NCBI GenBank assembly: GCA_018814945.1
Contig: JAHIYT010000153.1
Location: 1 to 12,021, forward strand
Direction of reading: 5' to 3'
Length of the DNA stretch: 12,021 bases
Source: Patescibacteria group bacterium
GTDB taxonomy: Bacteria > Patescibacteriota > Gracilibacteria > UM-FILTER-43-11
Position 1 is the first letter of the stretch, and each line of letters begins with the position of its first letter. Below the pieces are notes generated by a model. That model was not told the DNA's origin and did not search any database. It was given only the letters and a program-made list of their open reading frames with translations. Both the position numbers and the translations under genes were made by a program. Below are positions 213-12,021 of the stretch, piece by piece.

Positions 213-1163
213 ATGGAAAGAAGAATTTTAGTAACAGGAGCTGTTGGACAAATTGGCTCTGAACTTATTCCTGCGTTAAGGGCAAAACACGGAGGTGAAA
301 ATGTAATCGCGGTTGGGCATAAAAAAGAACCAACTGAGGAATTCAGGAGTTCGGGACCTTATGAAACAGCGGATACAACAGACAAAGAGGAAATAAAATC
401 TTTAATAGAAAAATACGATATTAATACGATATATCATTTGGTTGGTGTTCTTTCAGCGGTTGGTGAAAAGAAGCCTGACTTGGCATGGAGTGTAAATATG
501 GATGGGTTGAAGAATGTTTTGGATCTAGCCGTGGAATATAAAATTGATAGACTTTTTTGGCCAAGTTCAATTGCTGCTTTTGGCCCAACAACACCACTAG
601 AGAATACTCCACAAAGGACGGTGCTTGAACCTACAACCATGTATGGAGTTACAAAAGTTGCCGGAGAGCTTTTATGCCAATATTACTTTGTTAAATACGG
701 ATTGGACGTAAGAAGCTTGAGATATCCGGGTGTTATTTCGTGGAAAACTCCCCCTGGTGGTGGAACAACAGATTATGCAGTCGCTATATATTATGATGCT
801 GTTCAAAAAGGAAGTTATGATTGTTTTGTTGGTGAGGAGACGGTTTTGCCAATGATGTATATGGACGATGCGGTGCAAGCAACAATACAGTTAATGGAGG
901 CTGAACCGGAAAAAATTACTGTGAGGACTGCTTACAATCTTACGGCGGTAAGCTTTTCCGCAAAGGAATTGGCAGATAATGTTGCAAAGCATGTTGATGG
1001 ATTTACCTGCACATTTACGCCCGACGAAAGACAAAAAATTGCCAACTCATGGCCATCATCCATAGACGATTCCAAAGCGAGAGAAGATTGGGGATGGAGT
1101 CATAAGTTTGGCTTGGATGAGATAAGTGGGGATATGATTACAAATTTAACTAATAACCAGTAG
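213..1163 (+). CDS. L-threonine 3-dehydrogenase, short-chain dehydrogenase (SDR) type
   Basis: NAD-dependent oxidation of L-threonine to 2-amino-3-ketobutyrate, in the cytoplasm. The 316-residue protein is an extended-SDR/epimerase-like Rossmann enzyme. Visible motifs are TGAVGQIG near the N-terminus (residues 8-15), FWPSSIAAFGPTTP (115-128), the catalytic YxxxK pair Y144/K148 with S118/S119, the TPPGGGTTDYA substrate loop (179-189), PMMYMDDA (213-220) and SSIDDSKAREDWGW (282-295). These match the SDR-type threonine dehydrogenases known from bacteria such as Flavobacterium and from animals, not the zinc-dependent E. coli Tdh. I chose ATG 213 because MERRILVTG fits the family N-terminus. An in-frame TTG at 189 has an AAGGA 8 nt upstream and would add 8 residues. 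No kbl (2-amino-3-ketobutyrate CoA ligase) gene is visible in the window. Family assignment is confident; substrate is inferred from motif identity. Confidence 0.88.
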   Translation: MERRILVTGAVGQIGSELIPALRAKHGGENVIAVGHKKEPTEEFRSSGPYETADTTDKEEIKSLIEKYDINTIYHLVGVLSAVGEKKPDLAWSVNMDGLKNVLDLAVEYKIDRLFWPSSIAAFGPTTPLENTPQRTVLEPTTMYGVTKVAGELLCQYYFVKYGLDVRSLRYPGVISWKTPPGGGTTDYAVAIYYDAVQKGSYDCFVGEETVLPMMYMDDAVQATIQLMEAEPEKITVRTAYNLTAVSFSAKELADNVAKHVDGFTCTFTPDERQKIANSWPSSIDDSKAREDWGWSHKFGLDEISGDMITNLTNNQ

Positions 1164-1167
1164 TGGA

Positions 1168-1239
1168 GCCAATGGAGGGACCTGTTGTGGAATCCACCAT
1201 TGGCCCCTCGATTGGTCCCTCGATTGGTCCCTCAACAGG
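1168..1239. repeat. Intergenic word-repeat palindrome in the csaA leader
   Basis: Three direct 12-nt units lie at 1198-1209, 1210-1221 and 1222-1233 with consensus (c/g)ATTGG(c/t)CCCTC. On the left side, 1168-1182 carries the same words inverted (GCCAAT, then GGAGGGACC). CCTGTTG at 1181-1187 is a perfect inverted match to CAACAGG at 1233-1239. Because AGGA at 1237-1240 is the only Shine-Dalgarno candidate for csaA, one possible fold would cover it. The order of words differs between the two arms, so several alternative pairings are possible. Confidence 0.75.
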
Positions 1240-1244
1240 AAATT

Positions 1245-1580
1245 ATGAAACAAATAACTTGGAATGAATTCGAGGCTGTGGAACTAAGAACCGGAACAAT
1301 TACTGATGTTCAGGATTTTCCGGAAGCAAGAGTTTCTGCATATAAAATTACTGCGGACTTTGGTGGAGGTATTGGGGTGAAGAAATCCAGCGCGCAAATT
1401 ACGGAGATTTATAGCAAAGAGGAACTGATGGGGAAGAAAATTGTTGGAGTTGTGAATTTTCCCCCAAAACAGATCGGGCCTTTTATATCGGAATTTCTGG
1501 TCACCGGTTTTTATACGGATAAAGGGGTAGTTTTAGCTGTTCCGGATAAGGATGTGGAGAATGGGTTGAAGTTAGCCTAA
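1245..1580 (+). CDS. csaA: CsaA, tRNA-binding OB-fold protein
   Basis: A 111-residue cytoplasmic protein, the normal size of CsaA. CsaA is a dimeric OB-fold tRNA-binding protein related to the EMAPII/Trbp111 and MetRS C-terminal domain, and in Bacillus it has been given chaperone-like activity linked to secretion. Diagnostic stretches are VELRTGTI (residues 12-19), DFPEARVSAYKI, the IGVKKSSAQIT motif in the middle of the protein, and VVNFPPKQIGPFISEFLV. The start at 1245 is chosen because the frame could be extended upstream only through the 12-nt repeats (giving LVPRLVP), whereas MKQITWNEF fits family N-termini. AGGA ends 4 nt before the ATG, a rather short spacing. The gene follows the threonine dehydrogenase by 81 nt and may be cotranscribed with it. 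Its stop codon lies inside a terminator hairpin. Confidence 0.93.
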   Translation: MKQITWNEFEAVELRTGTITDVQDFPEARVSAYKITADFGGGIGVKKSSAQITEIYSKEELMGKKIVGVVNFPPKQIGPFISEFLVTGFYTDKGVVLAVPDKDVENGLKLA

Positions 1581-1623
1581 TTTCCATTATGGAAATTAGG
1601 CCCCGCTAAGCGGGGCCCTTTTT
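1576..1623 (+). terminator. Double-hairpin intrinsic terminator after csaA
   Basis: The first hairpin is CCTAATTTCC (1576-1585), loop ATTAT, GGAAATTAGG (1591-1600), a perfect 10-bp stem that includes the csaA stop codon. The second is GGCCCCGC (1599-1606), loop TAA, GCGGGGCC (1610-1617), followed by C and five T (1619-1623). The stems share the two G at 1599-1600, so they form in tandem with slight competition. The GC-rich stem plus T-run is a classic rightward terminator. It also sits downstream of the leftward gene ending at 1633, but on that strand no T-run follows. Confidence 0.9.
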
Positions 1624-1632
1624 GGAAGGGCA

Positions 1633-2232
1633 TCATAATCTGCGAACAGCTAGGAAAATCAGGGGGGTTTCTTCGGTGGAGCCACCGTCGGAGCACATCC
1701 AATCGATGTCGAAGCCGTTGTCGACGTCTTTGTAGATGATTGGAACGTACTTGTGTGTGGCGCAGGAGAGGTTTATTTCGGGGTCGTCGCAACCTTGCAC
1801 GGGGTATTCCCACTCGAATCCTAGCGCGACTATTGGCTTGGTTTCCAGAGTAGAAAACTGCTCTGCGACGTAGGGGTGGATCTCATCCGGGTACTCTATC
1901 ACTAGGGATAGAAGGTGATCTAAACTGGCGGGCTTGCGATTGTTTCTCAGATTCTTGCGCGCCTCATCGAAGGTTATGTAGCCGTAGTCCAACAGCTCCA
2001 ACCTGACCATCTTCTCGTACTGGTACTTGCTGTCCTCAAATCGATGAGAGTACAGATTGCCCAGAACCCATTCGATGGAATGTTCTTCCAACGTTGGAAC
2101 GAGCGCTCGGCCGTACGTAGTCAGGACTCTGAACTTGCCAACGACTTTGCAATGAGATCTTGTTTTTCCAACTGCCGAGAAGCAAATGGAAACCATGAGG
2201 ATTGCGAATATTGCGATGAAAATCTTTTTCAT
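1633..2232 (-). CDS. Secreted protein of unknown function, GC-richer than its surroundings
   Basis: A 199-residue protein whose N-terminus is a clear Sec signal peptide: MKK, a hydrophobic stretch IFIAIFAILMVSICFSA, then cleavage probably near residue 20-22. The mature part has four cysteines (28, 148, 157, 180), which could pair as disulfides outside the membrane, and several aromatic-rich segments (GFEWEYPVQG, DNGFDIDWMC). I recognise no domain. The start is fixed by a strong Shine-Dalgarno AAGGAGGGAG (2236-2245, reverse strand), with GGAGG 6 nt before the ATG. Two counted 60-nt lines in the gene give 53% and 55% GC, against about 37% in backbone genes, and it ends in TGA. These features suggest a transferred gene. 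It faces csaA convergently across the double-hairpin terminator. Confidence 0.78.
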   Translation of the reverse strand: MKKIFIAIFAILMVSICFSAVGKTRSHCKVVGKFRVLTTYGRALVPTLEEHSIEWVLGNLYSHRFEDSKYQYEKMVRLELLDYGYITFDEARKNLRNNRKPASLDHLLSLVIEYPDEIHPYVAEQFSTLETKPIVALGFEWEYPVQGCDDPEINLSCATHKYVPIIYKDVDNGFDIDWMCSDGGSTEETPLIFLAVRRL

Positions 2233-2235
2233 TTT

Positions 2236-2245
2236 CTCCCTCCTT
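2236..2245 (-). promoter_or_regulatory. Strong Shine-Dalgarno site of the secreted-protein gene
   Basis: The reverse strand reads AAGGAGGGAG immediately upstream of the ATG at 2232, with six nucleotides between GGAGG and the start codon. It is much stronger than anything in front of the AT-rich genes of this window. Confidence 0.85.
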
Positions 2246-2374
2246 GGAGTTTTGTTGCTGATGCAAATGATGTGAATGAGCTACTTAACCACCCCTCCTT
2301 CGCATAAAGCTACGATAGGGAGTTAAATAGAGGTCAAATTTTAAGCTTATGGAGATTTAAAGTCAATTACACTA

Positions 2375-2403
2375 TTGCTTTTTTGGCTTAGATATGGTAA
2401 AAT
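2375..2403 (+). promoter_or_regulatory. Sigma-70-type promoter for the duplicated-domain gene
   Basis: TTGCTT (2375-2380), a 17-bp spacer, then TAAAAT (2398-2403) preceded by TG at 2395-2396, an extended -10. Transcription would start near 2410, leaving a leader of about 20 nt before the ATG at 2433. The leader is A-rich and has no Shine-Dalgarno. The rest of the gap (2246-2374) shows no further structure that I can name; it should also hold the promoter of the leftward secreted-protein gene, which I could not identify convincingly. Confidence 0.65.
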
Positions 2404-2432
2404 ATAGAGATTAATTAATAAAAAAAATCAAA

Positions 2433-3380
2433 ATGTCATTTTTAGATAAAATTAAAGGTTGGTTTGGCGGAAAGGGCAAGGAATCTCAAGCTGGAACAAC
2501 TGAATCTGCTTTCCAGCAACAAAGAAAAGAGTTTAGTGAAGTTTTTTCAGATCAAAAGGGCACTTATGAGGAAAAAACTATTGCTACCCGCGAGGAAATT
2601 CAGGCTAAACAAGCACGCAAGGAAGTAGAAGAAACTCTTTTAGAAACTCCAGTACCTGAAAGTCTTCAGCATGAAGTAACAATGCCAGAAATTAAACCAA
2701 AAGCTGTACCAAAATTTAAAATGACAAAAGAACTGGTACAAGAATATTTAAGTAAATCTAATGATCCTTTGGGGCGTTATATATTGAATAATACTGATGC
2801 TAAAGTGGTGGATAAGGATTATATGGCACGCATAAAACATGAATTACTTGAAAGACCCGAATTACTTGAACAAAAAACTGGTAGATTTTACTGTCCTCCG
2901 CTTGAGGATTACCTAAGAGTAATGGGTTATTCATACGTACCAGAGAAAGATAGTAAGTATAGCGAAATTGATTATCTTGTAGAACGGATACTAAGTAATG
3001 TAGCGCATGATATAGAATGGTCTGGTAAAGTTGAAGAAATACAAAAAGAAGTTGTTAATGAATATATGGATAGAGAAGAGGATCCTTTTGGCAAGAACAT
3101 GAAAGAAGTTCTTGGTGTTGAGAATTTTGATGAAAACCGCAAAAGAGTTGTTTACTTTGCGATTAAAGAAAATCCAGTAACAATTGAACATGAAACATGT
3201 TTTGAATTGGAGGATTATATAAGAGCTATGGGGAAAACAAATGAAGAAGCGATTAGGCTTTCCAGAGAAATTCTAAGAAGAGCCTATATTGATATTAGTG
3301 CAGGAAAAGAAGCAAAAGAAGAAATTGCAGCAACTGGTACAGAAGGTATGACACAAAAAGCTGTTAAAATAGCGTCTTAA
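2433..3380 (+). CDS. Unknown protein with two tandem copies of a novel-looking ~95-residue domain
   Basis: A 315-residue, highly charged, soluble protein with no signal peptide. It opens with an amphipathic/basic segment (MSFLDKIKGWFGGKGK), followed by a low-complexity, probably coiled or disordered stretch to about residue 95. Residues ~98-195 and ~202-290 are diverged copies of one domain. Each has a Tyr-Met/Leu start, a DPxG motif (D111-G114 and D217-G220), an E-x-P turn, and the block LEDYxRxMG (157-165 and 259-267), then a long helix. Spacing between the motifs is conserved to within four residues. I do not recognise the domain; it is probably all-helical. The gene has its own promoter and terminator, so it is monocistronic. 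No Shine-Dalgarno precedes the ATG, only an A-rich leader. Confidence 0.85.
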   Translation: MSFLDKIKGWFGGKGKESQAGTTESAFQQQRKEFSEVFSDQKGTYEEKTIATREEIQAKQARKEVEETLLETPVPESLQHEVTMPEIKPKAVPKFKMTKELVQEYLSKSNDPLGRYILNNTDAKVVDKDYMARIKHELLERPELLEQKTGRFYCPPLEDYLRVMGYSYVPEKDSKYSEIDYLVERILSNVAHDIEWSGKVEEIQKEVVNEYMDREEDPFGKNMKEVLGVENFDENRKRVVYFAIKENPVTIEHETCFELEDYIRAMGKTNEEAIRLSREILRRAYIDISAGKEAKEEIAATGTEGMTQKAVKIAS

Positions 3381-3397
3381 AAACGTAAATATTTTCG

Positions 3398-3428
3398 AAG
3401 GCGAATTGGTTTTAGCTGATTCGCTTTT
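3398..3428 (+). terminator. Intrinsic terminator after the duplicated-domain gene
   Basis: AAGGCGAAT (3398-3406) pairs with ATTCGCTTT (3419-3427) with one G-T pair. Wobble pairs extend the stem inward toward the loop TTTTAG, and a T-run (3425-3428) follows. It lies 18 nt after the TAA of the upstream gene. Confidence 0.72.
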
Positions 3429-3435
3429 AGTCTTA

Positions 3436-3465
3436 TTGACTTTAAGGATAATAAAAGTGTAGTAT
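3436..3465 (+). promoter_or_regulatory. Probable promoter for the 66-residue protein gene
   Basis: TTGACT (3436-3441), an 18-bp spacer, then TAGTAT (3460-3465). Transcription would begin near 3472, about 60 nt before the ATG at 3535. The position directly after a terminator supports it. Confidence 0.5.
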
Positions 3466-3534
3466 TTTGTTTGGTGAAAGTAATTTTTGATCAAATGGTC
3501 CCGCTGAGCTGGATCGTAACTAGCTAAAACAAAA

Positions 3535-3735
3535 ATGAAAAGAGGCCCCTCACAATCACTGGATGATAGTCAACGCCCTGCAATAGAAACTGTGGATGGT
3601 TTTGGGTTTGTTGAAGTTGCAAGGGAAGCAGTAAGAAAAATTAGAGGCACTGAGCTGACAAGAGAAGCGGAATTGGAATTACTTATTAGCGCAGGTAGAA
3701 ATGGTGGTGGTTTTCAGTTAATTGAAGCAGATTAA
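3535..3735 (+). CDS. Small hypothetical protein (66 residues)
   Basis: A short soluble protein without signal peptide or membrane segment, and I do not recognise it. The middle (FVEVAREAVRKIRGTELTREAELELLISAGRNGGG) looks like two helices joined by a short turn, followed by a glycine-rich loop and a short C-terminal strand (FQLIEAD). This could be a small adaptor or a DNA- or protein-binding unit, but nothing specific supports a role. The case for coding is an uninterrupted frame with protein-like amphipathic helices, a promoter candidate upstream at suitable distance, and the next gene's promoter beginning only 4 nt after its stop codon. No Shine-Dalgarno is present (AAAACAAAAATG), as for most genes here. 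Confidence 0.6.
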   Translation: MKRGPSQSLDDSQRPAIETVDGFGFVEVAREAVRKIRGTELTREAELELLISAGRNGGGFQLIEAD

Positions 3736-3739
3736 ATAT

Positions 3740-3767
3740 TTGACAAATTCTGTTAACGGTGTACAAT
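3740..3767 (+). promoter_or_regulatory. Strong sigma-70-type promoter for the secreted CARDB-like gene
   Basis: Consensus TTGACA (3740-3745), a 16-bp spacer and TACAAT (3762-3767). Transcription would start near 3774, giving a leader of about 25 nt before the ATG at 3799. It is one of the best matches to the consensus in the window and separates this gene from the small gene upstream. Confidence 0.75.
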
Positions 3768-3798
3768 TTATCCCCTATATCGATAATATATTTTAATT

Positions 3799-4509
3799 AT
3801 GTCTAAAATTACTCAATTTATAGCAATGTTTTTGATTGGAGTTATGCTAATGCCAGTTGCATTTGCAAAAAGTGAAGAGCCTATTTACATAGATGGTGCA
3901 AAAGCATACACGGAACCAGCTAATCAGGGTGTTGTTGCTAAGGTTACTGTTTGTAATTCTAACAGCAATCGTATTAAATTCACCCTTAAAGCAAAAAATC
4001 TTACTATAAACGACACCTATAAGAGGAGACTAACTCTTGTGGACAATGGTTGTGAAGTAATCGAAATAGATTTTACTAACAGTTTTTCAGACCTTACTCA
4101 AGCTGGAGATAAAATAGAATTTTCTATAACAAATATTAAAGATTCAGATATAGACGAAGATTATGATGAGCCAAATCCTACTACTGTAACTGTTGAAGAA
4201 CAAGATCCTGAAAGCCCACCATGTGGTGATAAAAGTGGTGATGATGATGAATATGATCTTTGTGTGGGTGATTTTCTTACCCATAATGATACAAAAGTAA
4301 GAATAAAACTTATTGGTTACAAAAATAGCCACAGAAGTAACTATGTTGATCTTCTTGTTTCAAATATTAGGTGGGGTGGCTCAGAAACAGTAAGAGTATA
4401 TTCTGACAGAACGACTGAAGTTACCTCAAGAAGTAATTCAAAATTGAAAATTACCAATTACGGCAGATCTCATAGTGGTCATTATCTTATTCAGTTACAA
4501 GGCAACTAA
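3799..4509 (+). CDS. Secreted two-domain beta protein, CARDB-like N-terminal domain
   Basis: A 236-residue exported protein. Residues 1-23 form a Sec signal peptide with a likely AFA cleavage site at 21-23. Residues ~45-132 look like a CARDB/Ig-type beta sandwich: alternating hydrophobic strands (VVAKVTVCN, RIKFTLKAKN), a central LTLVDNGCEVIEIDF strand pair, LTQAGDKIEFSIT, and an acidic DxDIDEDYDEPNPT segment resembling the acidic, N-rich end of CARDB domains. An acidic linker (~134-153, GDKSGDDDEYD) that may bind Ca2+ leads to a second beta domain (154-236) beginning CVGDFLTHNDTKVRIKLIGY. Cysteines 52, 85, 142 and 155 could form two disulfides. Domain assignment is by pattern only; a surface or adhesion role is inferred. 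The gene overlaps the convergent tyrA-pheA gene by 4 nt. Confidence 0.8.
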   Translation: MSKITQFIAMFLIGVMLMPVAFAKSEEPIYIDGAKAYTEPANQGVVAKVTVCNSNSNRIKFTLKAKNLTINDTYKRRLTLVDNGCEVIEIDFTNSFSDLTQAGDKIEFSITNIKDSDIDEDYDEPNPTTVTVEEQDPESPPCGDKSGDDDEYDLCVGDFLTHNDTKVRIKLIGYKNSHRSNYVDLLVSNIRWGGSETVRVYSDRTTEVTSRSNSKLKITNYGRSHSGHYLIQLQGN

Positions 4510-6188
4510 TAAGAACCCAAAACTTTTAGTTTTTCAACTTTGCCCTTAACTTTGTTAAGGGCTTTTTGAATGTTGGAATTTTGTAAGCCTCCTTCAAAGT
4601 CTATGTAGAAAACGTAATCTCCATGAACTTTTGGGTTTGGTCGTGACTCGATTTTGGTTAAATTTATTTTGAAGTCCGAGAAATTCTGAAGTACAGAAAA
4701 AAGTGAACCTGGTGCATCTTTTTTAAAGGTAAAAGCTATTGAGGTTTTTTTGCCATTAGATTTTTGGTCTTTTGTTTTTGAACTTTTTCGAATTACTGCA
4801 AAATAAGTTCTATTATTTTCATTGTCCTGAATAGACTTTTTAATTATTTTTAGTCCGTATTTTTTTACGACGGTTTCTGATCCAATTGAAACCACATAAG
4901 GATCTTGCTCCTTTAACACTCGCGAAAGTGCCGCGGCTGTACTTGCTACCGGCAGGCAAACTGCATTGGGCAGATTCTTTTTAATAAATTGCCTGCTTTG
5001 TAGGAATGGCTGTGGATGGGAATAGACTGTTTTTATATCTTTCAAATTGATACTTCTGATGCCGATTAATGCAAGATGAATTGGAAGTGATGTCATTTGC
5101 TCTATCCATACATCTTCCTCAAAGAGCTCATCTAATGCTTCGCGTACAGAACCTGTAAGACTATTTTCGATTGGGACAAATCCATATTTAATTTTTCCGT
5201 CTCTGACTAGTGCAAATATTTCGTTGATGGAAGATGTGTACCAAATTCTTGCTTTTGGTTTAAATTTTCTTGCCGCAATATCTGAATATGTATCCCTTGG
5301 TCCAAGAACTGCTAAATCATATTTTTTAACTAAATCTTTTGGTGGTTCGGCGGATGGCATACCTGAACCAAGCATTTCCTTTATAAGTCTATCACTTTCT
5401 ATCATCGCCTGCTCTGTAAAAGATCCTAAATACTTGCTGGCGGAATTAAAATATTTAACAAAGCTTTTATTATCTTTTTTTGTGACTATCTCCGTAAGCT
5501 TTTTACAGCTTTCAATAAAATCCTGCATCACTTTTTTACTGAGCGGATTGTCTATCTGGATATTGGCATAAAGATTTGGGTCCTGATTTAAAATACGCCC
5601 CATCATGTCTAATTCTAAGCGATATACAGGGCTTTGATATGTGACCATTTCTTTGATTGGAATGCCTGATTTACGGAGCGTATCCGCGAGTGCGATATCA
5701 GAAAAATGCGTAAGCGCCTGAACATATGACATTAGAGTATCGTGTTTTTTGGTAGTAAGAGTTTTAACAATTACTTTGTTTTTTTCGAATAGATTCTTTA
5801 GCCAATCGAACCATTTAGAACCTTTCCCTGGGCACATAATTACAAGTTGCCCCTGAATTGGATTACTTGGTCCAAATAGCGGGTGACAGCCAAGATGGGA
5901 GGCTTTTGTGGCCTTCATAGCTTTCATTGGAAATTCTTTTAAAGAAGTTAAATCCATTAACAATCCCGACTTCTTGATAAGTGGAGCAATTTCTTTAATA
6001 ACTTTCTCAGTTTTATCTATTGGAACTGAGATAATTACTACGTCTGCCTTTTTGGCCAGTTGCTTGTTTGTGAGAGAAGTTTTTTTGTCACTGATAATTA
6101 CCTCGTATCCATTACTCTCAAAAAAATCGGCAAAGTATTTGCCCATTGCACCACGACCACCTATGATTCCAATGACTTTATTGCTCAT
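4506..6188 (-). CDS. Fused prephenate dehydrogenase / prephenate dehydratase with ACT domain
   Basis: One 560-residue protein joining the two enzymes that split prephenate toward tyrosine (4-hydroxyphenylpyruvate) and phenylalanine (phenylpyruvate). Residues 1-275 are TyrA: GGRGAMG (10-16), D34 favouring NAD over NADP, HPLFGPS (H102), MSYVQALTHF (153-162) and SPVYRLELDMMGRILNQDPNLYANI-type block (187-211, like E. coli T-protein). Residues ~290-465 are the PheA dehydratase: VLGPRDTYSDIAA (294-306), VPIENS (338-343), SHPQPFLQ (390-397), NNRTYF (458-463). Residues ~482-558 are a regulatory ACT domain with ESRP (514-517), suggesting phenylalanine feedback. There is no chorismate mutase domain. 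Oddities: GPxGTYS has D299 instead of Gly, and TRF reads TYF. ATG 6188 gives the family-like N-terminus MSNKVIGIIGG; an upstream in-frame ATG at 6206 abuts the intergenic palindrome. Neither has a Shine-Dalgarno. Confidence 0.93.
   Translation of the reverse strand: MSNKVIGIIGGRGAMGKYFADFFESNGYEVIISDKKTSLTNKQLAKKADVVIISVPIDKTEKVIKEIAPLIKKSGLLMDLTSLKEFPMKAMKATKASHLGCHPLFGPSNPIQGQLVIMCPGKGSKWFDWLKNLFEKNKVIVKTLTTKKHDTLMSYVQALTHFSDIALADTLRKSGIPIKEMVTYQSPVYRLELDMMGRILNQDPNLYANIQIDNPLSKKVMQDFIESCKKLTEIVTKKDNKSFVKYFNSASKYLGSFTEQAMIESDRLIKEMLGSGMPSAEPPKDLVKKYDLAVLGPRDTYSDIAARKFKPKARIWYTSSINEIFALVRDGKIKYGFVPIENSLTGSVREALDELFEEDVWIEQMTSLPIHLALIGIRSINLKDIKTVYSHPQPFLQSRQFIKKNLPNAVCLPVASTAAALSRVLKEQDPYVVSIGSETVVKKYGLKIIKKSIQDNENNRTYFAVIRKSSKTKDQKSNGKKTSIAFTFKKDAPGSLFSVLQNFSDFKINLTKIESRPNPKVHGDYVFYIDFEGGLQNSNIQKALNKVKGKVEKLKVLGSY
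4542..4567 (+). terminator. Intrinsic terminator embedded in the convergent tyrA-pheA gene
   Basis: GCCCTTAAC (4542-4550), loop TTT, GTTAAGGGC (4554-4562), then TTTTT (4563-4567). This is a perfect 9-bp stem plus T-run, oriented to stop rightward transcription of the secreted gene ending at 4509. On the opposite strand the same bases are codons for the KALNKVKGK segment of the ACT domain (about residues 542-550), so one stretch serves both as terminator and coding sequence. Confidence 0.85.
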
Positions 6189-6207
6189 GGTGAAGTAACG
6201 ATACATT

Positions 6208-6280
6208 AACTTTGAAAATCTGAAAACTTGAAAACTAAGTTCTTATACCTGGTTTTTCAGATTTTCAAGTTTTCAAAGTT
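6208..6280. repeat. Word-repeat palindrome filling the ATPase/tyrA-pheA gap
   Basis: Left arm 6208-6236 and right arm 6252-6280 are 29 nt each and match in inverted orientation at 23 positions. Outer AACTTTGAAAA/TTTTCAAAGTT is perfect over 11 bp. Inside, each arm consists of 8-nt words YYTGAAAA; the left arm reads TCTGAAAA then CTTGAAAA, and the right arm (reverse complement) has them in swapped order. The element occupies the entire gap: it starts 2 nt outside the upstream ATG option (6206) and ends 2 nt inside the ATPase stop codon. A weak leftward promoter (TTGAAA 6263-6268, 15-bp spacer, TATAAG 6242-6247) could lie in it. Confidence 0.85.
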
Positions 6281-8984
6281 ATTTTTTTGATTTTTTATTA
6301 TCAGGCTTTTTCTCGAATTTTTTCTCAGACACCTCAGTTTTGTTCGGGGCATGCTTTTTCTCTCCATCACCATCCTTCCCTTTCTCAAGTTTCTTAATCG
6401 GTTGGCTCCAGCGTAAGATCTTGTCCTCTACAATGGCACGTTCGGTACAATAGCGTTCACGAGATAAGCGTACGACTTTATCTCTTCGCTCTTCGTCTAA
6501 ATCAAAGTCTACAGGAGGTAATGTGCTAAGTGAGAATGTCTGACTTGGCATTCCGTCAATCATCAACTTTGTATAACAGCTATATTTTGGGAGTGTGATG
6601 ATGTCATTTGGTAATACTTCTTCAGAGAATTGATTGGAAAAGTACTCGGCATCCTCAAAACCAACCTGGAAACAAAGTGATGTACCCACATTACCAAATA
6701 CTGCATCGCGAACTTCATCCGGCATTTGTGCTACATACTGATTAGCCATTGTTAAGTTGAGCTTGTATTTACGAGCTTCAGAGAGAATGGTTGCAAAGGC
6801 ATCTGTGGCAAAATTTTGGAACTCATCCACGTATAAGTAGAAGTCTCTACGATCTTTTTCAGGTACATCCGCACGGCTCATCGCATCAAGCTGGAATTTT
6901 GTAATTAACATTGAACCGAGGAGACTTGAATTATCTTCACCAATTTTACCTTTGGAGAGATTTACGACAATGATCTTTCCGCTATCCATCATAAAGCGGA
7001 TATTTACCGTAGATTTCACTTGTCCAACGATATTGCGAATCATTGGAGAGGAAAGAAATTGTCCAACCTTATTTTGAATTGGGGATATTGCTTCAACTCT
7101 TTGGCGATCCTGGAATTTACCAAATTCATCAATCCAGAAACTTCTTACCATAGGATTTTGCAGTTTCTCTACTACCTTTCTTCGATATTCATCATCTACA
7201 AGAATACGCATAATACCGAGCATGGAAGTGTTTGGAGTTTCGGTAAGTGCAAGTAGGCAGTTTCGGAGGATGTGCTCAAGACGTGGTCCCCAACTATCGG
7301 AATACATCTTTTTAAATACACCAAGTAAGCCAGATGCCATTAGATTTCTTTTGTTTGGATCTTCGGTATATTCCAGCATATTAAATGCAAATGGATGAGA
7401 GACGTCGGATGGATCAAGAATAACAACATCATTTGTTCTGTAAGACGGAACGAAATCAATTACTTTGTCGGCCAAATCCCCGTGTGGATCAACTACCGCA
7501 ATACCCTTTCCTGCGCGCACATCAGAATAAGCCATGTTTTCCAGAAGTACAGATTTACCCATACCGGTTTTACCAATGATATATATGTGACGTCTGCGAT
7601 CTACGGTTTTGATTCCAAATAATTCTCGATGTCCGCGGAAATCAGTTTTACATATTATAGTTAATTCACTGTCTGGGATTGTCCCTGGCATTGGTAAATC
7701 GTTAGGCGGTTCAAGCTTACGAGATGTTACCCACATAACGTTCGGCGTTTTAACCTCCATTGATGGCATATGGTAGATGGTCGCTATCTCTTCAACATTC
7801 AGAATCATCGGTTTAATAACTAACCTTTGCTGATAACGCTTAAGAATTGCAGAGTTAGCTTTATTGATTTTTGAAATTCCAAAGCTATTTAAATTTGGTA
7901 GATCAAATTGTCTCAAGCTTCCTGCAATTTCATTTATCTTCACTTCAGCAAGATCAAGATTTTCTTTGCGAGGAATGTATACTATGCGGATGTTGGTATC
8001 AAAACTAAGACGTGTAACCTTGTCGACAGCCGCAGAAACTGGGTCTTCGCGATCATGCATTCTAGATACTTCTTCACGCAAATCCTGATCATCACTACTT
8101 TTTACACTAAGGTCTTTTGTTCTAAATCCTCTGAGTGACCAAAATAGGAGATAGAGAGGGGTGTAAAATAATCTTTTCCAAAATCCTCTCGCTAAATAAA
8201 TGTTTGTGGCTAATTTTTGAAGCCAAAAGACATTGTTAAACAGACCATTGCTAACTATTCTAAGACATTTTAAACCTCTTTTTCTCCACCAATCCCCTAT
8301 GGGTTCCATTGTAATCTGAATCCAAGCCTGCTCATCGGTGGCGTTTAACTTGGAAAGTGTTGCAGTAATGCCAGCTAGAGGTTCTGTTGCAATACGAGTA
8401 AGTTTATCTTCAAATTGTGGATAACGCTTGATTGGATAAATATCCGGATCGTCGAATCTTAATTCAGCTGTTATTGCGTATTTCATGGCCTCGACTTTCT
8501 TTTTGATGATAGCCGGTAGGTTTGATCCATCTGCTACCCCTTGAACCTCCACTTCTTCTGCTTCATCACCTGTAATCTGACCACTATAGGCAGCAAAAGC
8601 CTGAGTTGCATAATCATCGACCTCTTCAATTTCGACATCGGGATATTGAGCATAAATCTGGCTTTCAATTACATTTTTAAAACGCTTTGGCGTCCAGATA
8701 AAAAACTGAATTTTATTTTTAACATTTGCAATTTCAAGACTTATGCGCGGTTTTGTACGACCGAGAAGATAGTCACCCAATCCATAATTTTCTTCTAATC
8801 CATGAAGTGCTGAAAAAATTTGCTCGGCAACTATTGGACCTTTTTCATTTAATCTGGAAACAGCCACACGCAAAACAACAGATTTTAGATTTCTGTTATA
8901 ACTAGTTCTTCGCATCCTTAGAAAAATGCGATACAGAATGTAAAAACCTATGATTCCAAGAATAACTGGAAGATAATTTTGCAT
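6279..8984 (-). CDS. Membrane-anchored VirD4/TraD-like ATPase (type IV secretion coupling-protein family)
   Basis: A 901-residue P-loop ATPase of the HerA/FtsK-like VirD4/TraD/VirB4 clade. Residues ~4-22 form a single N-terminal membrane helix (LPVILGIIGFYILYRIF). A second hydrophobic patch lies at ~272-286. Residues ~30-440 are a large N-terminal region typical of CPR homologues, for which I can give no activity. The motor follows: Walker A GKTGMGKS (471-478), the VVDPHGDLADKVID strand (497-510), Walker B FYLYVDEFQNF (715-725) with acidic D720/E721, and ARKYKLNLTMANQYVAQM (737-754), the region of the TraD/VirD4 sensor glutamine. The C-terminal ~35 residues are Lys/Glu-rich and probably disordered. 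It likely moves DNA or protein across the membrane, or helps assemble an envelope machine. No relaxase, VirB or pilin gene accompanies it in the window. It starts a leftward unit with tyrA-pheA 90 nt downstream. Confidence 0.85.
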   Translation of the reverse strand: MQNYLPVILGIIGFYILYRIFLRMRRTSYNRNLKSVVLRVAVSRLNEKGPIVAEQIFSALHGLEENYGLGDYLLGRTKPRISLEIANVKNKIQFFIWTPKRFKNVIESQIYAQYPDVEIEEVDDYATQAFAAYSGQITGDEAEEVEVQGVADGSNLPAIIKKKVEAMKYAITAELRFDDPDIYPIKRYPQFEDKLTRIATEPLAGITATLSKLNATDEQAWIQITMEPIGDWWRKRGLKCLRIVSNGLFNNVFWLQKLATNIYLARGFWKRLFYTPLYLLFWSLRGFRTKDLSVKSSDDQDLREEVSRMHDREDPVSAAVDKVTRLSFDTNIRIVYIPRKENLDLAEVKINEIAGSLRQFDLPNLNSFGISKINKANSAILKRYQQRLVIKPMILNVEEIATIYHMPSMEVKTPNVMWVTSRKLEPPNDLPMPGTIPDSELTIICKTDFRGHRELFGIKTVDRRRHIYIIGKTGMGKSVLLENMAYSDVRAGKGIAVVDPHGDLADKVIDFVPSYRTNDVVILDPSDVSHPFAFNMLEYTEDPNKRNLMASGLLGVFKKMYSDSWGPRLEHILRNCLLALTETPNTSMLGIMRILVDDEYRRKVVEKLQNPMVRSFWIDEFGKFQDRQRVEAISPIQNKVGQFLSSPMIRNIVGQVKSTVNIRFMMDSGKIIVVNLSKGKIGEDNSSLLGSMLITKFQLDAMSRADVPEKDRRDFYLYVDEFQNFATDAFATILSEARKYKLNLTMANQYVAQMPDEVRDAVFGNVGTSLCFQVGFEDAEYFSNQFSEEVLPNDIITLPKYSCYTKLMIDGMPSQTFSLSTLPPVDFDLDEERRDKVVRLSRERYCTERAIVEDKILRWSQPIKKLEKGKDGDGEKKHAPNKTEVSEKKFEKKPDNKKSKK

Positions 8985-9180
8985 ATTTTTATTTTTACTA
9001 ACTTATTCTAGCGAATTTTCACGAAAATATATAGTAAAATGGATGATTAATTTCCAATTTCCAATAAAATTCTAATTTTGATTTTCTAATATCTAATGTG
9101 CTCATTAGAAATTAGAAAATTAGTCATTGATTATTCACTGGAAATTAAAAATTGGTTATTGAAAATTATTATTAATCGGG
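8985..9180. repeat. AT-rich gap with a long 18-bp palindrome and word repeats
   Basis: The gap between the ATPase start and the GC-rich gene region is very AT-rich. Its centre is a hairpin with arms 9081-9098 and 9103-9120 (ATTTTCTAATATCTAATG against CATTAGAAATTAGAAAAT), 17 of 18 pairs, loop TGCT. Outside it, words TTTCCAA (9051-9057, 9058-9063 partly) recur inverted as GGAAATT and ATTGG (about 9140-9157), so the palindrome is nested and imperfect over roughly 9051-9175. A weak leftward promoter for the ATPase gene may lie at 9031-9057 (TTGGAA, 15-bp spacer, TACTAT). No coding sequence is supported here. Confidence 0.75.
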
Positions 9181-9221
9181 CCTCCAGCACGCTCCGTAGT
9201 CGGTTGGAACGTGCGTGGAGG
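9181..9221 (-). terminator. Terminator-like hairpin after the twin-CX3C gene
   Basis: CCTCCA (9181-9186) pairs with TGGAGG (9216-9221); inside it GCACG pairs with CGTGC and TCC with GGA, with one bulge and one mismatch, around a loop of about 10 nt. It lies 31 nt beyond the TGA of the leftward gene at 9253. The leftward sequence after it is only weakly T-rich, so termination is likely but not certain. Confidence 0.55.
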
Positions 9222-9252
9222 TCTCGTGGTCGTGGTGCCCGATGTCGGCCGA

Positions 9253-9561
9253 TCAGATCGGCCGTTGACGGTGGTTGATGATGATATTCAGTCCGCCGAT
9301 CAGCAGGATGGCGCATGCCGCACCGAGGAAGGCGCGAATGCTGGTCGGGAGGCTGTAGGGCTCCTCGGCAGAGTCGTCATCGTCGGCGGTGATGCACTCG
9401 TCGAAGCAGGCGCTCTGTGGCGCACACAGCTCTTCGCAGTGCTCTTGACGGCTGGATTCCTGGGCATCCGCCTTCTTGACGATGGCCACGACGACCAAAA
9501 CGCCGACCAAGAAGTAAGCGGTTATCATGATGGCTTGCCAGTGCTTTTTCTCCATCTTCAT
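9253..9561 (-). CDS. Small GC-rich membrane protein with twin CX3C motif
   Basis: A 102-residue protein I cannot assign to a family. Residues 8-30 are strongly hydrophobic (WQAIMITAYFLVGVLVVVAIV) and end in KKADAQ, so they are either a membrane anchor or a signal peptide cut after ADA (31-33). Residues 42-56 contain C-x3-C-x5-C-x3-C (CEELCAPQSACFDEC), a pattern able to make two disulfides across a helical hairpin. An acidic run (TADDDDSAEE) follows, and residues 75-96 (IRAFLGAACAILLIGGLNIII) are a membrane helix with a short basic tail. The start at 9561 is fixed by AGGAGA 7 nt upstream. Counted lines within it give 55-68% GC and it ends in TGA, both unlike the backbone genes, which suggests transfer. 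Leader sequence 9582-9599 can form a 5-bp hairpin. Confidence 0.7.
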   Translation of the reverse strand: MKMEKKHWQAIMITAYFLVGVLVVVAIVKKADAQESSRQEHCEELCAPQSACFDECITADDDDSAEEPYSLPTSIRAFLGAACAILLIGGLNIIINHRQRPI

Positions 9562-9568
9562 GGAACTG

Positions 9569-9574
9569 TCTCCT
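9569..9574 (-). promoter_or_regulatory. Shine-Dalgarno site of the twin-CX3C gene
   Basis: AGGAGA on the reverse strand, 7 nt before the ATG at 9561. It decides between this start and a possible in-frame start nine codons upstream at 9588. Confidence 0.75.
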
Positions 9575-9620
9575 AAACAAAGGTGCATATTTCAGCACCC
9601 GGGTTTTGTTCGGTCCCACT

Positions 9621-9742
9621 TTCACAAAGAGGGCACCTAGTAGGCAAACAAGAACCAACAACGATCCCGATTATTCGAGATGATGAGGGTAGAAGTTGCC
9701 AACCACGTAGCTCTTTGTGAAGAGATTATGATGTGAAAGAGC
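9621..9742. repeat. Inverted repeat and hairpin in the 9562-9778 gap
   Basis: TTCACAAAGAG (9621-9631) is repeated in inverted form as CTCTTTGTGAA (9711-9721), 79 nt apart. The right copy also lies in a local hairpin, GCTCTTT (9710-9716) with AAAGAGC (9736-9742). This hairpin is downstream of the leftward hypothetical gene ending at 9779 and could help end its transcript, though no T-run follows. A promoter for the twin-CX3C gene must lie in this gap, but I found no convincing match. Confidence 0.55.
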
Positions 9743-9778
9743 ATTATTCTTATTCTGGCCTAAAAGGTTCAACAAGTA

Positions 9779-10156
9779 CTATATAGGTTCTTGTACCTTA
9801 CGTTTTACTTCTTCAATAGGAGAATCTGGATCACGCAAAGGGCAATCACCATTTAAACAATCTCTGCACTCTAAACGATAGGCATTTACAATAGGTGCCA
9901 GCTCACCTGCTTCTACTATTAATTCCTGAGATTCTTTTCCACTATTTGATAAAGGGAAAATCTTCATAAGATCAAGATCGTGAAGTTGATCATGGGTCAC
10001 GCATGTCGACTGATTAACTAATTGTCTCAATTGCAACATTACAAGTACTCGATCTTCCTCAAAATCAGATTGGGGTCTTGATTTAACATTATCAATTTCA
10101 CGAGTGAGCATGGTTCGAACGTTATAACCCATTTCTGGTTTAAGTTGTTTAGCCAT
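9779..10156 (-). CDS. Hypothetical protein with a cysteine cluster (core frame; may start further upstream)
   Basis: The core from ATG 10156 encodes 125 residues (MAKQLKPEMGYNVRTMLTREI...), soluble and mostly helical, with no signal peptide. Near the C-terminus is YRLECRDCLNGDCPLRD, a C-x2-C-x4-C cluster (97, 100, 105) that might bind a metal together with an upstream His (H55 or H59), although the fourth ligand is uncertain. I do not recognise the family. The frame stays open upstream to a TTG at 10345 (188 residues), and ATG 10195 (SEMLIFF...) is another option. The upstream 63 residues are polar and then hydrophobic and look less protein-like, and the TTG overlaps a repeat word, so I prefer 10156. 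No start has a clear Shine-Dalgarno. A good leftward promoter at 10417-10444 serves any of them. Confidence 0.6.
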   Translation of the reverse strand: MAKQLKPEMGYNVRTMLTREIDNVKSRPQSDFEEDRVLVMLQLRQLVNQSTCVTHDQLHDLDLMKIFPLSNSGKESQELIVEAGELAPIVNAYRLECRDCLNGDCPLRDPDSPIEEVKRKVQEPI

Positions 10157-10245
10157 AATATTGGGGGGTAAAAAGTTTATAAAAAAAATCAACATTTCAC
10201 TGTTAAGAAAAAATTCCTTACTTGTGAAAGGTCCACTGGTTTTAG

Positions 10246-10267
10246 TCTCTCCGTTCTTTTGGAGAGA
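10246..10267 (-). other. Hairpin in the leader (or 5' coding part) of the cysteine-cluster gene
   Basis: TCTCTCC (10246-10252) and GGAGAGA (10261-10267) form a perfect 7-bp stem around an 8-nt loop. If translation starts at 10156 it lies in an approximately 250-nt leader and might be regulatory; if it starts at 10345 it is coding. Confidence 0.45.
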
Positions 10268-10416
10268 TAAATTTCCTGACTGATTCACATTTTTCCTAGA
10301 ATCAGGCTCTTCTTCCTTACAGCTCACTTTACTGGAATTAGCCAATGGCTACTATCTGTAAGTTTACAAGCGCACCTATAGTGGATAGGTATCAGGGTTT
10401 ACAATTTACAAGAAAC

Positions 10417-10444
10417 ATTTTAACATATATTAAATATTTGTCAA
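10417..10444 (-). promoter_or_regulatory. Strong leftward sigma-70-type promoter
   Basis: The reverse strand reads TTGACA (10439-10444), a 16-bp spacer, then TAAAAT (10417-10422) with TG one base upstream, giving an extended -10. Transcription would begin near 10410 and run left into the cysteine-cluster gene. Confidence 0.75.
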
Positions 10445-10504
10445 TAGTAATGTTAATCTTTTATTTATTGGCTAAATGCAGTACAATCCTTACGCTTAAT
10501 TACC

Positions 10505-10587
10505 AATTGCTAAGCCAGTTGCTGATCCATAGCTAATCCAATAGCTACTGGATATACAACTGGATAAGCCATCGGATAAGCAACCGG
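10505..10587. repeat. 11-nt phased inverted-repeat array in the miaB leader
   Basis: From 10518 the sequence can be cut into six consecutive 11-nt units (10518-10528, 10529-10539, 10540-10550, 10551-10561, 10562-10572, 10573-10583). The first two read gttGCTgATCC and ataGCTaATCC; units five and six, ggataagccat and cggataagcaa, are the same word in reverse complement. Related words (GGCTAA, CCAATGGCTACT) also occur at about 10337-10352 and 10467-10475. The array ends 4 nt before the miaB ATG. The rest of the gap (10346-10504) holds the leftward promoter and no other feature that I can support; a rightward promoter with TACAAT near 10482 is possible but has a poor -35. Confidence 0.75.
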
Positions 10588-10591
10588 AAAT

Positions 10592-11923
10592 ATGAAATAT
10601 TTTATTCAAACATATGGGTGTCAGATGAACTACTCCGATTCGGAGAGGTTAACGACTGTTTTGAAGAAGCTTGGATACAAAGAATGTGATCATTACAATA
10701 AGGCTGATCTTATTATTTTAAATACCTGTTCCGTTAAACAAAATGCGGATAATAGAATTTATGGCCTTGGTGAGCCATTCGCAGAGTTAAAGAAAAAAAA
10801 CCCTAAACTCAAAATTGGTATAACTGGTTGTGCTATCCGCAAAGGTACGGGTATTCGAGGTGAATGTAAGGATCAGATTTTTAGAAGAATGGATACGGTT
10901 GATTTTGTTTTTAGAATAAAAGATCTGATGCAGGTTCCGGAGATACTCAGAAAACTTCATCACGTAGAAGGTGCGGATGAGGTGAAAGATTTACTAAATT
11001 ATTTTCATATTGATCCGACCGTTGCAAATATTACTCAGGTTTTTATACCGATTATGAGCGGATGTAATAATTTTTGCGCTTATTGCATAGTGCCCTACGC
11101 TAGGGGTAGAGAGGAAAGCAGAAGTATGTCGGAGATTTTGGAGGAGGTTGAAAAAATGGCTAAAAGAGGTGCAAAAGAGGTGAATTTAGTTGGTCAGAAT
11201 GTAAATACTTATAAACCGAGTGATGCGAGTCCGGACTCCAAAGAAACTCCATTCACACAATTATTGAGGAAAATTGATGCCGTGCAAGGAATTGATAGAA
11301 TTAGATTTTATACTGTGCATCCAAAGGATATGACGGATGATGTTATAAATTTGTACGGAGAACTAAAGAGTATGGTTCCGCATTTGCATTTACCAGTTCA
11401 ATCCGGTTCGAATTCGGTTTTAAAGAGAATGAATCGTTTGTATACTGTTGAGAGATTTAAGGAATTGGTGAGTAAGATGAGGAAAAAAATGCCAAATATA
11501 TCTATTTCCACCGATATTATTGTTGGTTTTTGCGGTGAGGCGGAAGAGGAATTTATGGAAAGTGTTAATTTGATTAAGGATGAAAAAATTGATTTAGTTT
11601 ATGTCTCAAAATACTCCGAAAGACCAGGTACTTTGGCACAAAAGGAGCTTGAGGACGATGTTTCTGATGATGTTAAAAAGGAGAGGTTTGAGAAAATTAC
11701 TGAAATTATGAAAGATGTTTCTCATGAATATAATCAACAATTCCTCGGCAAGACTGTTCAGGTTTTAGTGGAAAAAGTTGCAAAAGGTTATGCGAGTGGA
11801 AAAATACCGGAGTATAAAATGTGTAGGTTTAAATCTGATGATCCGAGTTTGATTGGAGAGTATATAAATGTGAAGGTTGATAAGGCGATGGAGTGGTGTC
11901 TTGAGGGCGACGTTGTCGCCTAA
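10592..11923 (+). CDS. miaB: MiaB, tRNA-2-methylthio-N6-dimethylallyladenosine synthase
   Basis: A 443-residue radical-SAM methylthiotransferase, full length for the family, which adds the 2-methylthio group to i6A37 of tRNAs reading UNN codons. The N-terminal UPF0004 domain carries the auxiliary-cluster cysteines C10 (TYGCQMN), C46 (NTCSVKQNAD) and C80. The radical-SAM CxxxCxxC is SGCNNFCAYCIVPYARGREESRS (C158, C162, C165). LVGQNVNTY (199-207), HLPVQSGS (267-274) and YSERPGTLA (341-349) follow, and a TRAM RNA-binding domain spans about 384-443. Two departures from usual MiaB are visible: the third-cysteine region reads GCAIRKGTGIRGECKD with an extra cysteine (C92), and the common GFPGE reads GFCGE (312-316). 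TYGCQMN and the CNNFC block favour MiaB over RimO or MtaB. It starts 4 nt after the 11-nt repeat array, with only a GGA-like ribosome site. Confidence 0.93.
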   Translation: MKYFIQTYGCQMNYSDSERLTTVLKKLGYKECDHYNKADLIILNTCSVKQNADNRIYGLGEPFAELKKKNPKLKIGITGCAIRKGTGIRGECKDQIFRRMDTVDFVFRIKDLMQVPEILRKLHHVEGADEVKDLLNYFHIDPTVANITQVFIPIMSGCNNFCAYCIVPYARGREESRSMSEILEEVEKMAKRGAKEVNLVGQNVNTYKPSDASPDSKETPFTQLLRKIDAVQGIDRIRFYTVHPKDMTDDVINLYGELKSMVPHLHLPVQSGSNSVLKRMNRLYTVERFKELVSKMRKKMPNISISTDIIVGFCGEAEEEFMESVNLIKDEKIDLVYVSKYSERPGTLAQKELEDDVSDDVKKERFEKITEIMKDVSHEYNQQFLGKTVQVLVEKVAKGYASGKIPEYKMCRFKSDDPSLIGEYINVKVDKAMEWCLEGDVVA

Positions 11924-12021
11924 TTACAAGATTAACGCTTCGCTTATTAGTTATTACAAAATTATTTTGATGTAGAAATATCCAGCCTAATCTTGTAATC
12001 TTGTAATAGCTAATCTTGTAA
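11924..12021. repeat. Word-repeat palindrome downstream of miaB, running to the window edge
   Basis: TTACAAGATTA (11924-11934, directly after the miaB stop) is matched in inverted orientation by TAATCTTGTAA at 11988-11998 and 12011-12021, with an overlapping third copy AATCTTGTAA at 11997-12006. A diverged word TTATTACAAAATTA lies at 11951-11964. The element may continue past the edge. It could fold at the 3' end of the miaB transcript, but there is no GC-rich stem with T-run, so I do not call it an intrinsic terminator. Confidence 0.75.

Follow-up and report, generated by a model that had tools for sequence, protein, structure and literature searches.

Why does a bacterium with a small, gene-dense genome carry folded arrays of short repeated words between its genes, and why do the words change from one gap to the next? 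The question is raised by a 12,021-base stretch of DNA from a Patescibacteria group bacterium, called the window below, which is the entire contig C90 (JAHIYT010000153.1) of a 1.03 Mb assembly in 187 contigs. Five gaps between its genes contain arrays, named g1 to g5, in which a run of tandem words faces a run of inverted ones. An earlier note on this sequence interpreted them as products of local creation. With moderate confidence, we favor the explanation that four of the five arrays, and probably the fifth, belong to many fast-turning-over families of dispersed palindromic repeats, which are copied whole and exchanged at gene junctions, mostly between co-directional genes. Relative to the first reading, the arrays appear to be dispersed, exchangeable families and a variant of known dispersed palindromic repeats.

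Array g1 (positions 1151–1246, forward strand) is formed of 12-nucleotide (nt) words CCAATGGAGGGA and CCTCGATTGGTC on a CCARTNG skeleton. Its left arm spans approximately 1151–1182 and its right arm approximately 1194–1244, and the terminal CAACAGGAAATT precedes the start codon (ATG at 1245) of a gene for a tRNA-binding domain. The 8-nt words YYTGAAAA of g2 (6208–6281, reverse strand) are arranged in a left arm at 6208–6236 and a right arm at 6254–6281. This array is positioned between the stop codon of a TraG/VirD4-like gene (6279–8984, reverse strand) and the first ATG of a prephenate dehydrogenase/dehydratase gene (4506–6206, reverse strand). Array g3 (9047–9175, no strand assigned) has an inner TCTAAT hairpin (9081–9098 and 9103–9120, 94% complementary) within outer TTTCCAA arms (9047–9079 and 9116–9175), and no confident start codon adjoins it. 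In g4 (10,498–10,591, forward strand), the left words are CCARTTGCTRAK and the right words YGGATAAGCAAC, and the terminal CCGGAAAT abuts the ATG of a MiaB-like gene. Array g5 (11,921–12,021, forward strand), with words around TTACAAGA and AATCTTGTAA, begins at the stop codon of the same gene and is truncated by the end of the contig.

The repeat content of the gaps was scored as the number of bases in 6-mers repeated directly, inverted, or both, and compared with 1000 dinucleotide shuffles of each gap. The shuffles reaching the observed inverted, direct, and joint scores numbered 2, 19, and 13 for the gap at 1168 (g1); 0, 64, and 6 for that at 6208 (g2); 2, 3, and 0 for 9051 (g3); 39, 1, and 1 for 10,505 (g4); and 5, 10, and 0 for 11,924 (g5). 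Each of the five gaps is unusual in at least one of the three measures, and the shared architecture of inverted short-word tandem arrays described in the earlier note is borne out. Four of the six other gaps of the window gave no signal in 300 shuffles each. The gap at 9577–9778 is weak (13 of 300 shuffles for direct and 13 of 300 for joint content), and 1581–1632 contains a plain terminator-like hairpin, from which tandem words are absent.

The permuted order of words between the arms, also described earlier for two gaps, is real. The gap at 6208 combines a perfect 15-nt inverted match (6212–6226 and 6254–6268) with an 89% match of 19 nt (6216–6234 and 6262–6280), and the symmetry centers of the two are 8 nt, or one word, apart. 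In the gap at 1168, the word CCTGTTG (1181–1190 and 1230–1239) is the innermost in the left arm and the outermost in the right arm. RNA folding z-scores of the five gaps range from −3.8 to −6.4 (g1 −3.8, g2 −6.4, g3 −5.2, and g4 −4.7). None of the nine terminator-like sites of the window, defined as a G+C-rich hairpin with a U run, is inside an array, and a search of the window against Rfam at gathering scores returned no family.

Abundance and families of arrays

Arrays were counted in the source genome, the sampled part of which is AT-rich (33% G+C), and in two sister genera, G006 and G011, with median ortholog identities to the source of 73% and 68%. The criterion was at least 30 bases in inverted 7-mers and at least 20 in 7-mers repeated both directly and inverted; genes were called by a simple longest-open-reading-frame rule, without a gene finder. 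The detector overlooks some clear arrays, for example that of locus L258, and the source sample is non-random, as contigs C69, C143, and C137 were picked as matches of earlier searches. The first 229 kb of the source genome (41 contigs including the window) have arrays in 25 of 127 gaps, whereas 100 shuffles averaged 1.3 and reached at most 4, and 20 draws of coding pieces averaged 0.7 and reached at most 2. In a larger sample of 317 kb (61 contigs including the window), arrays were present in 30 of 159 gaps, with an average of 1.4 in ten shuffles, and the comparison with shuffled intergenic sequence proposed in the earlier note thus confirms the excess. G006 has arrays in 55 of 264 gaps (shuffled 5.4), and G011 in 29 of 234 (shuffled 6.4, a sizeable share of the total).

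Relatives of its MiaB-like protein assign the window to Peregrinibacteria: the two nearest in a named collection, JAFGCT010000006 (86% identical) and PFOK01000087 (78%), are both from Candidatus Peregrinibacteria. Arrays were also detected at other Patescibacteria loci (10 of 103 gaps, shuffled 3.0), deltaproteobacterial loci (6 of 96, shuffled 0.8), Firmicutes/Bacteroidetes loci (3 of 80, shuffled 0.5), and in small pieces of 12 further genomes, some of which were taken for an array match (9 of 74). In small pieces from other families of the class, the 3 arrays in 36 gaps were not above chance (shuffled mean 1.4, maximum 3). Similar-looking arrays with other words are located between co-directional genes at L094 (Syntrophaceae) and at L090 and L092 (Patescibacteria group). 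The class may extend beyond the Peregrinibacteria lineage, as the similar arrays in Syntrophaceae and at other Patescibacteria loci suggest.

The probability that the arrays are low-complexity chance products or assembly artefacts is negligible. An AT-rich genome in 187 contigs, with one element at a contig end, could produce such artefacts. However, the shuffles and coding controls and the occurrence of such arrays in other assemblies speak against it, and contig ends are not enriched for arrays (7 of 122, against a mean of 4.3 and a maximum of 8 in interior pieces). This explanation is refuted for the set of arrays, although single weak arrays may be due to chance.

The array g4 has eight further copies in the source genome with identities of 76–87%, and the nine copies, including that of the window, align end to end. 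A covariance model built from them, R1, has 12 matches in the source genome at E ≤ 0.01, including the nine input copies. The same model matches g1 (1151–1246) with an E-value of 2.3e-5. Arrays g1 and g4 have in common 11–12-nt words, the CCARTNG skeleton, and a GGAAAT or GGAAATT ending before the ATG, so these two gaps are not unrelated, which corrects the earlier note on this point.

Words of g5 occur at no fewer than 20 places in the source genome including the window (21 match rows, 11 of which cover only the 34-nt right arm) in at least 11 match rows in G011, and in six match rows in G006. The search scored 40 of 42 candidates in the source and 40 of 46 in G011, so that the counts for these two genomes are lower bounds; 17 other genomes gave no match at 1e-6. 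Words of g2 were found at about 21 source places including the window, and those of g1 at five. The claim of the earlier note that the arrays are not dispersed repeats fails, since four of the five recur at about 4 to 20 other sites in the source genome. The copies belong to several families, not to the one dispersed family that the note had named as the alternative.

The common form of the g4 copies consists of left words CCARTNGCTAAT, right words YGGATAAGCAAC, and a last GGAAA or near form followed by a close start codon. The left words of ten copies have A or G at the fourth position of the 8-nt core GCTAATCC, which was left free in the counting pattern, in 24 of 25 cases. In the right words of these copies, taken as reverse complement, this position is T in 21 of 28. 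Such a constant mismatch between the arms is what copying of whole units predicts. Two copies depart from the common form: C92 has three GCTGATCC words in the right arm and none in the left, and C22 alone has matching GTTAATCC in both arms. These departures suggest later work within or between the arms. Arm-to-arm concordance of word variants, judged by eye in g5-type elements, gave no clear pattern.

Several pattern searches delimit the families. An exact end-to-end pattern of the type with CCAAT words was too strict, with a single genome-wide match, and was abandoned. A regular-expression scan for this type detected eight arrays in the source; G006 and G011 gave none, probably owing to the different words of these sister genera. 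The 24 rows from a scan for a GGAAA-ATG end with inverted content were mostly apparently coding. In phage and viral collections, g4 had no match at 1e-5, and two array patterns were not matched exactly anywhere. G+C-rich palindromes nested in or between array words were observed at L057:282–382, L058:2606–2716, L189:2134–2228, and L204:3324–3467, where they look like hairpins inserted into hairpins.

Arrays at gene junctions of sister genera

Two elements have near-identical copies in another genus. The palindrome L077:1421–1501, which is located between co-directional genes, is 95% identical over 81 nt to a copy in G006 between convergent genes, and its family has 16 match rows in the source, 15 in G006, and one in G011. 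The element L043:3060–3112 also lies between co-directional genes, and its copy in G011, with 98% identity over 53 nt, lies between divergent ones. Fourfold sites of miaB, the only gene from which synonymous divergence was judged, are identical to the source at 49% of positions in G006 (60/123) and at 36% in G011 (44/123). Against this divergence, the 95–98% identity of the copies requires recent movement, transfer, or very strong constraint. Two further conserved cross-genus stretches, first taken for shared elements, turned out to be tRNAs.

At orthologous junctions, the words are often different. Upstream of miaB, the source has CCAATTGCTAAG words and G006 has CGAATAGTGGCT words with a similar end CCGAAATATG, whereas G011 has no array. 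Fifteen junction pairs were compared, comprising the miaB pair and 14 picked by hand as seeming to have arrays on both sides, some of them weak or direct-only, from 36 syntenic co-directional pairs with a gap of 40–250 nt on at least one side. Twelve share at most four 8-mers, and the remaining three share 8, 9, and 27; non-orthologous array pairs share two on average, with five or more in 11 of 210 pairs. Elsewhere, an array faces a tight stop-start junction. With orthologous neighbors, the source gap is −1 nt where that of the relative is 92 nt, and 92 nt where it is 14 nt; a source gap of 1 nt corresponds to 101 nt in G006 and 90 nt in G011, and a source array to a gap of 1 nt in G006, the upstream neighbors being unchecked. 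The earlier note had proposed aligning orthologous gaps to see whether the words change while the architecture stays: this is the case at some junctions, the twelve pairs among them, and not at those where an array faces a tight junction.

Automatic calling at 48 syntenic junction pairs found arrays on both sides in 11, on one side in 17, and on neither in 20. The p-values for co-occurrence are 0.04 for the pooled pairs, which are not independent, 0.03 for the source and G006, 0.22 for the source and G011, and 0.56 for G006 and G011. Co-occurrence is therefore only weakly supported. Among 38 relatives, model R1 produced nine weak matches in seven genomes, all from the family of the source, and no match in the other 31. 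On reading, all nine turned out to be arrays built in the same way from different words.

Under a stricter fold-plus-repeat criterion, applied to gaps of 40–160 nt in the source, G006, and G011, arrays occupy 48 of the 268 gaps between co-directional genes, 12 of the 48 between convergent genes, and 5 of the 49 between divergent genes. They extend, in the median, from 5 nt past the stop codon to 6 nt short of the ATG; the corresponding values in array-free gaps are 7 and 11. The flush fit to stop and start codons was considered as an array-specific property and rejected, because control gaps share it in a weaker form, and it is mostly due to the filling of the gap.

The gene downstream of g1 (1245–1580, forward strand) encodes a putative tRNA-binding domain (PF01588, from Pfam) and is presumably CsaA-like. 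In transcription order, the TraG/VirD4/HerA-type ATPase gene precedes g2 and the fused prephenate dehydrogenase and dehydratase gene follows it. The radical SAM/TRAM gene between g4 and g5 (10,592–11,923, forward strand), which we take to be MiaB-like from its Pfam domains, served as the anchor for orthologous gaps. Several in-frame TGA codons occur in open frames from the MiaB search in G026, G028, G030, and G037, relatives of the same class, and would agree with TGA recoding there. Two G+C-rich islets with short open reading frames are present in the window at 1601–2200 (G+C fraction 0.50–0.53) and 9201–9600 (0.585), against 0.33 in the sampled genome. The second directly follows array g3, and the frames 1633–2232 and 9253–9588 have no Pfam match.

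Some array sequences are found next to, or inside, coding sequence. A conserved leader GTGGGAGGCCTCGAAAGCCGTTAAWACCACGCAAC lies beside the start codon at L077:1369–1415 in the source and upstream of a G011 gene (L252:12058–12760), where the adjoining palindromes are unrelated. At G011 L259:6533 and G006 L247:6076, a right arm of the g5 family is positioned between a TATAAT-like box and the start codon, with the left arm absent from the stretch shown; such a lone arm may be a leader by itself. In G009 (L187, contig C13), a CCAAT-word array continues the reading frame of a protein past the conserved part and forms the C-terminal tail. We take this protein to be a member of the DHH family.

Origin and persistence of the arrays

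In the explanation that we favor, for one Peregrinibacteria lineage, each family would have its own 7–12-nt word, and an element would consist of two to four tandem words, a short center, and two to four inverted words, approximately 50–145 nt in total. Entire elements would be copied to new places, as the end-to-end copies within the genome and the near-identical copies at unrelated places in sister genera indicate. They would settle mainly in the space that separates a stop codon from the following start or stop codon. A junction occupied by one family may then, in a relative, carry another family or no element, as is seen at several junctions, probably by replacement. Words may multiply within an arm by slippage, and the arms may occasionally correct each other, for which there are single examples. 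The RNA fold could bring the stop and the next start codon closer together, so that an insertion would cost the operon little. Tolerated operon function would be the reason why elements survive at junctions, and any regulatory use or role in the mRNA would be equally conjectural.

Several results weigh against this explanation. Array g3 has only one further, weak place in the source genome. Arrays are less frequent in divergent gaps (5 of 49) than in the others (60 of 316), but this difference is not significant (p = 0.16), and repeats within 15 nt of both ends characterize 35 of 48 array gaps and also 105 of 220 array-free gaps. The 91% identity between g5 and its counterpart at the same place after miaB in G011 fits vertical conservation under selection at least as well as mobility. 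The RAYT-type gene L301, discussed below, is flanked by GC palindromes without array words in the one source copy read. Neither a target-site duplication, nor an empty site at base resolution, nor an encoded mover was shown, and the genera are too far apart for near-identical empty sites.

Alternatively, the arrays may have grown in place from a small palindrome by local slippage and template switching, with shared words arising from biased mutation. The shifted word order at 6208 and 1168 fits such growth, as do the word run of C92 in one arm, the matching words of C22 in both arms, and a sevenfold run of CGGCTCATCAAT in G011 (L258). End-to-end copies of g4 at nine places, the 20 or more places with g5 words, and the 95–98% identity between genera at unrelated places make growth in place quite improbable as the full account. 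Slippage or template switching, which the earlier note suggested, thus retains support from the arm-specific runs, the sevenfold run, and the co-varying arms, but does not explain why other genera have almost the same complete elements at unrelated places. The process of continual creation envisaged in that note is plausible if copying and replacement act besides growth.

Selection on leader or intercistronic hairpins, acting in translation coupling, mRNA stability, or processing, could let words drift while only pairing matters. Different words at the same junctions of different genera, the strong folding, and the right ends of CCAAT-word arrays, where GGAAAT or a similar sequence adjoins the ATG, are in agreement with this idea. 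Its best case is g5, which is conserved in G011 beside the last ten codons of miaB, where third-position identity between the source and G011 is 60%; this conservation could reflect selection on one array or re-insertion at one site. However, the g4 family keeps the sequence of its words and not the pairing. RNAalifold was used to look for compensatory evolution in this family, which was rejected: two-sided change was found in one of 22 predicted pairs, and structure-only selection is therefore not shown for g4. The constant mismatch between the g4 arms, the weak co-occurrence at the 48 syntenic junction pairs, and the many junctions without an array in one genus also render such selection unlikely as the general cause. 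A bolder version of exchange, which we consider doubtful, holds that junctions carry an inherited hairpin slot, in which competing word families swap while the folded stop-start spacer persists. Architecture and place, not sequence, would then be conserved.

It is very improbable that the arrays are repetitive extragenic palindromic (REP) pairs or REPINs (paired REP hairpins) moved by a resident REP-associated tyrosine transposase (RAYT) of the Y1 type. The domain Y1_Tnp (PF01797) has two matches in the source genome (G000), at C60 and C46, five in G006, and two in G011, one of which is below the cut-off; 11 of the 20 genomes searched, including the source, have matches. Small GC palindromes in the centers of several arrays are also in favor of such a mover. 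However, the flanks of L301 (G000:C60) hold other palindromes and no array words, and G005, a 79% complete genome, has a CCAAT-word array and no Y1 match. The many unrelated word families are also against it, as is the g4 consensus, which lacks a GTAG or CGTC tag; GTAG is inside two of the eight further copies and CGTC in none of the nine. RAYT as the array mover was rejected, since the gene is present and the flanks read do not fit. L301 and L300 (G023) are RAYT-like Y1 genes beside G+C-rich palindromes in the classical REP style, unlike the arrays.

Comparison with known repeat systems

Small, gene-dense genomes of candidate phyla are usually described as stripped down, yet about one-fifth of the gaps in the source genome (30 of 159, from rough gene calls in a non-random third of the genome) contain arrays, which stem from several repeat families with turnover among related genera. 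Exchange at fixed junctions, if true, offers a natural test of whether bacterial intercistronic hairpins are parasites tolerated where they do no harm or spacers kept for their fold. Literature searches aimed at Peregrinibacteria, Patescibacteria, and candidate phyla, in which subscription journals were thinly covered, found no description of such arrays.

Palindromic elements of Rickettsia are dispersed and can become part of proteins, similar to the G009 array read as a C-terminal tail; the arrays described here are mainly between genes, and their arms are composed of tandem words. Miniature inverted-repeat transposable elements (MITEs) and other small mobile sequences of bacteria are the subject of PMC2229807 and PMC10969869. 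Like MITEs, the arrays are non-coding, multicopy, and apparently mobile inverted repeats. Unlike in MITEs, the arms are internally repetitive, and target duplication or a related transposase is not demonstrated for the arrays.

REP palindromes, bacterial interspersed mosaic elements (BIMEs), and REPINs, with their RAYT, are the subject of PMC3116915, PMC3733652, and PMC8266576. The arrays resemble them as short multicopy intergenic hairpin palindromes in a genome with a Y1 transposase (PF01797). A REP or REPIN is built on one palindrome, usually with a GTAG/CGTC tag, whereas the arms of the arrays are tandem 7–12-nt words of many unrelated families per genome. No conserved tag was found in g4, the family checked, and the RAYT-type gene L301 is not flanked by array palindromes, whereas the RAYT gene of a REP system lies beside the same palindromes.

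Short tandemly repeated repetitive (STRR) heptamers of cyanobacteria are degenerate tandem words between genes, from which the arrays seem to differ by their inverted architecture and the exchange at orthologous junctions. In marine Beggiatoaceae, TAACTGA heptamers form tandem repeats in intergenic regions, in most cases a few nucleotides upstream of a start codon, with one inverted case reported (PMC4679880). The arrays share with them the tandem short words between genes. However, the TAACTGA repeats are direct and formed of a single heptamer, whereas inverted arms are common here and the words vary with family and genus. All five arrays of the window have inverted arms, unlike direct-only tandem heptamers of either type. 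Some gaps contain direct words only, such as L194|2052 and L201|2511, and the set of arrays compared across loci had been selected for inverted words. Therefore, the direct and inverted kinds may grade into each other.

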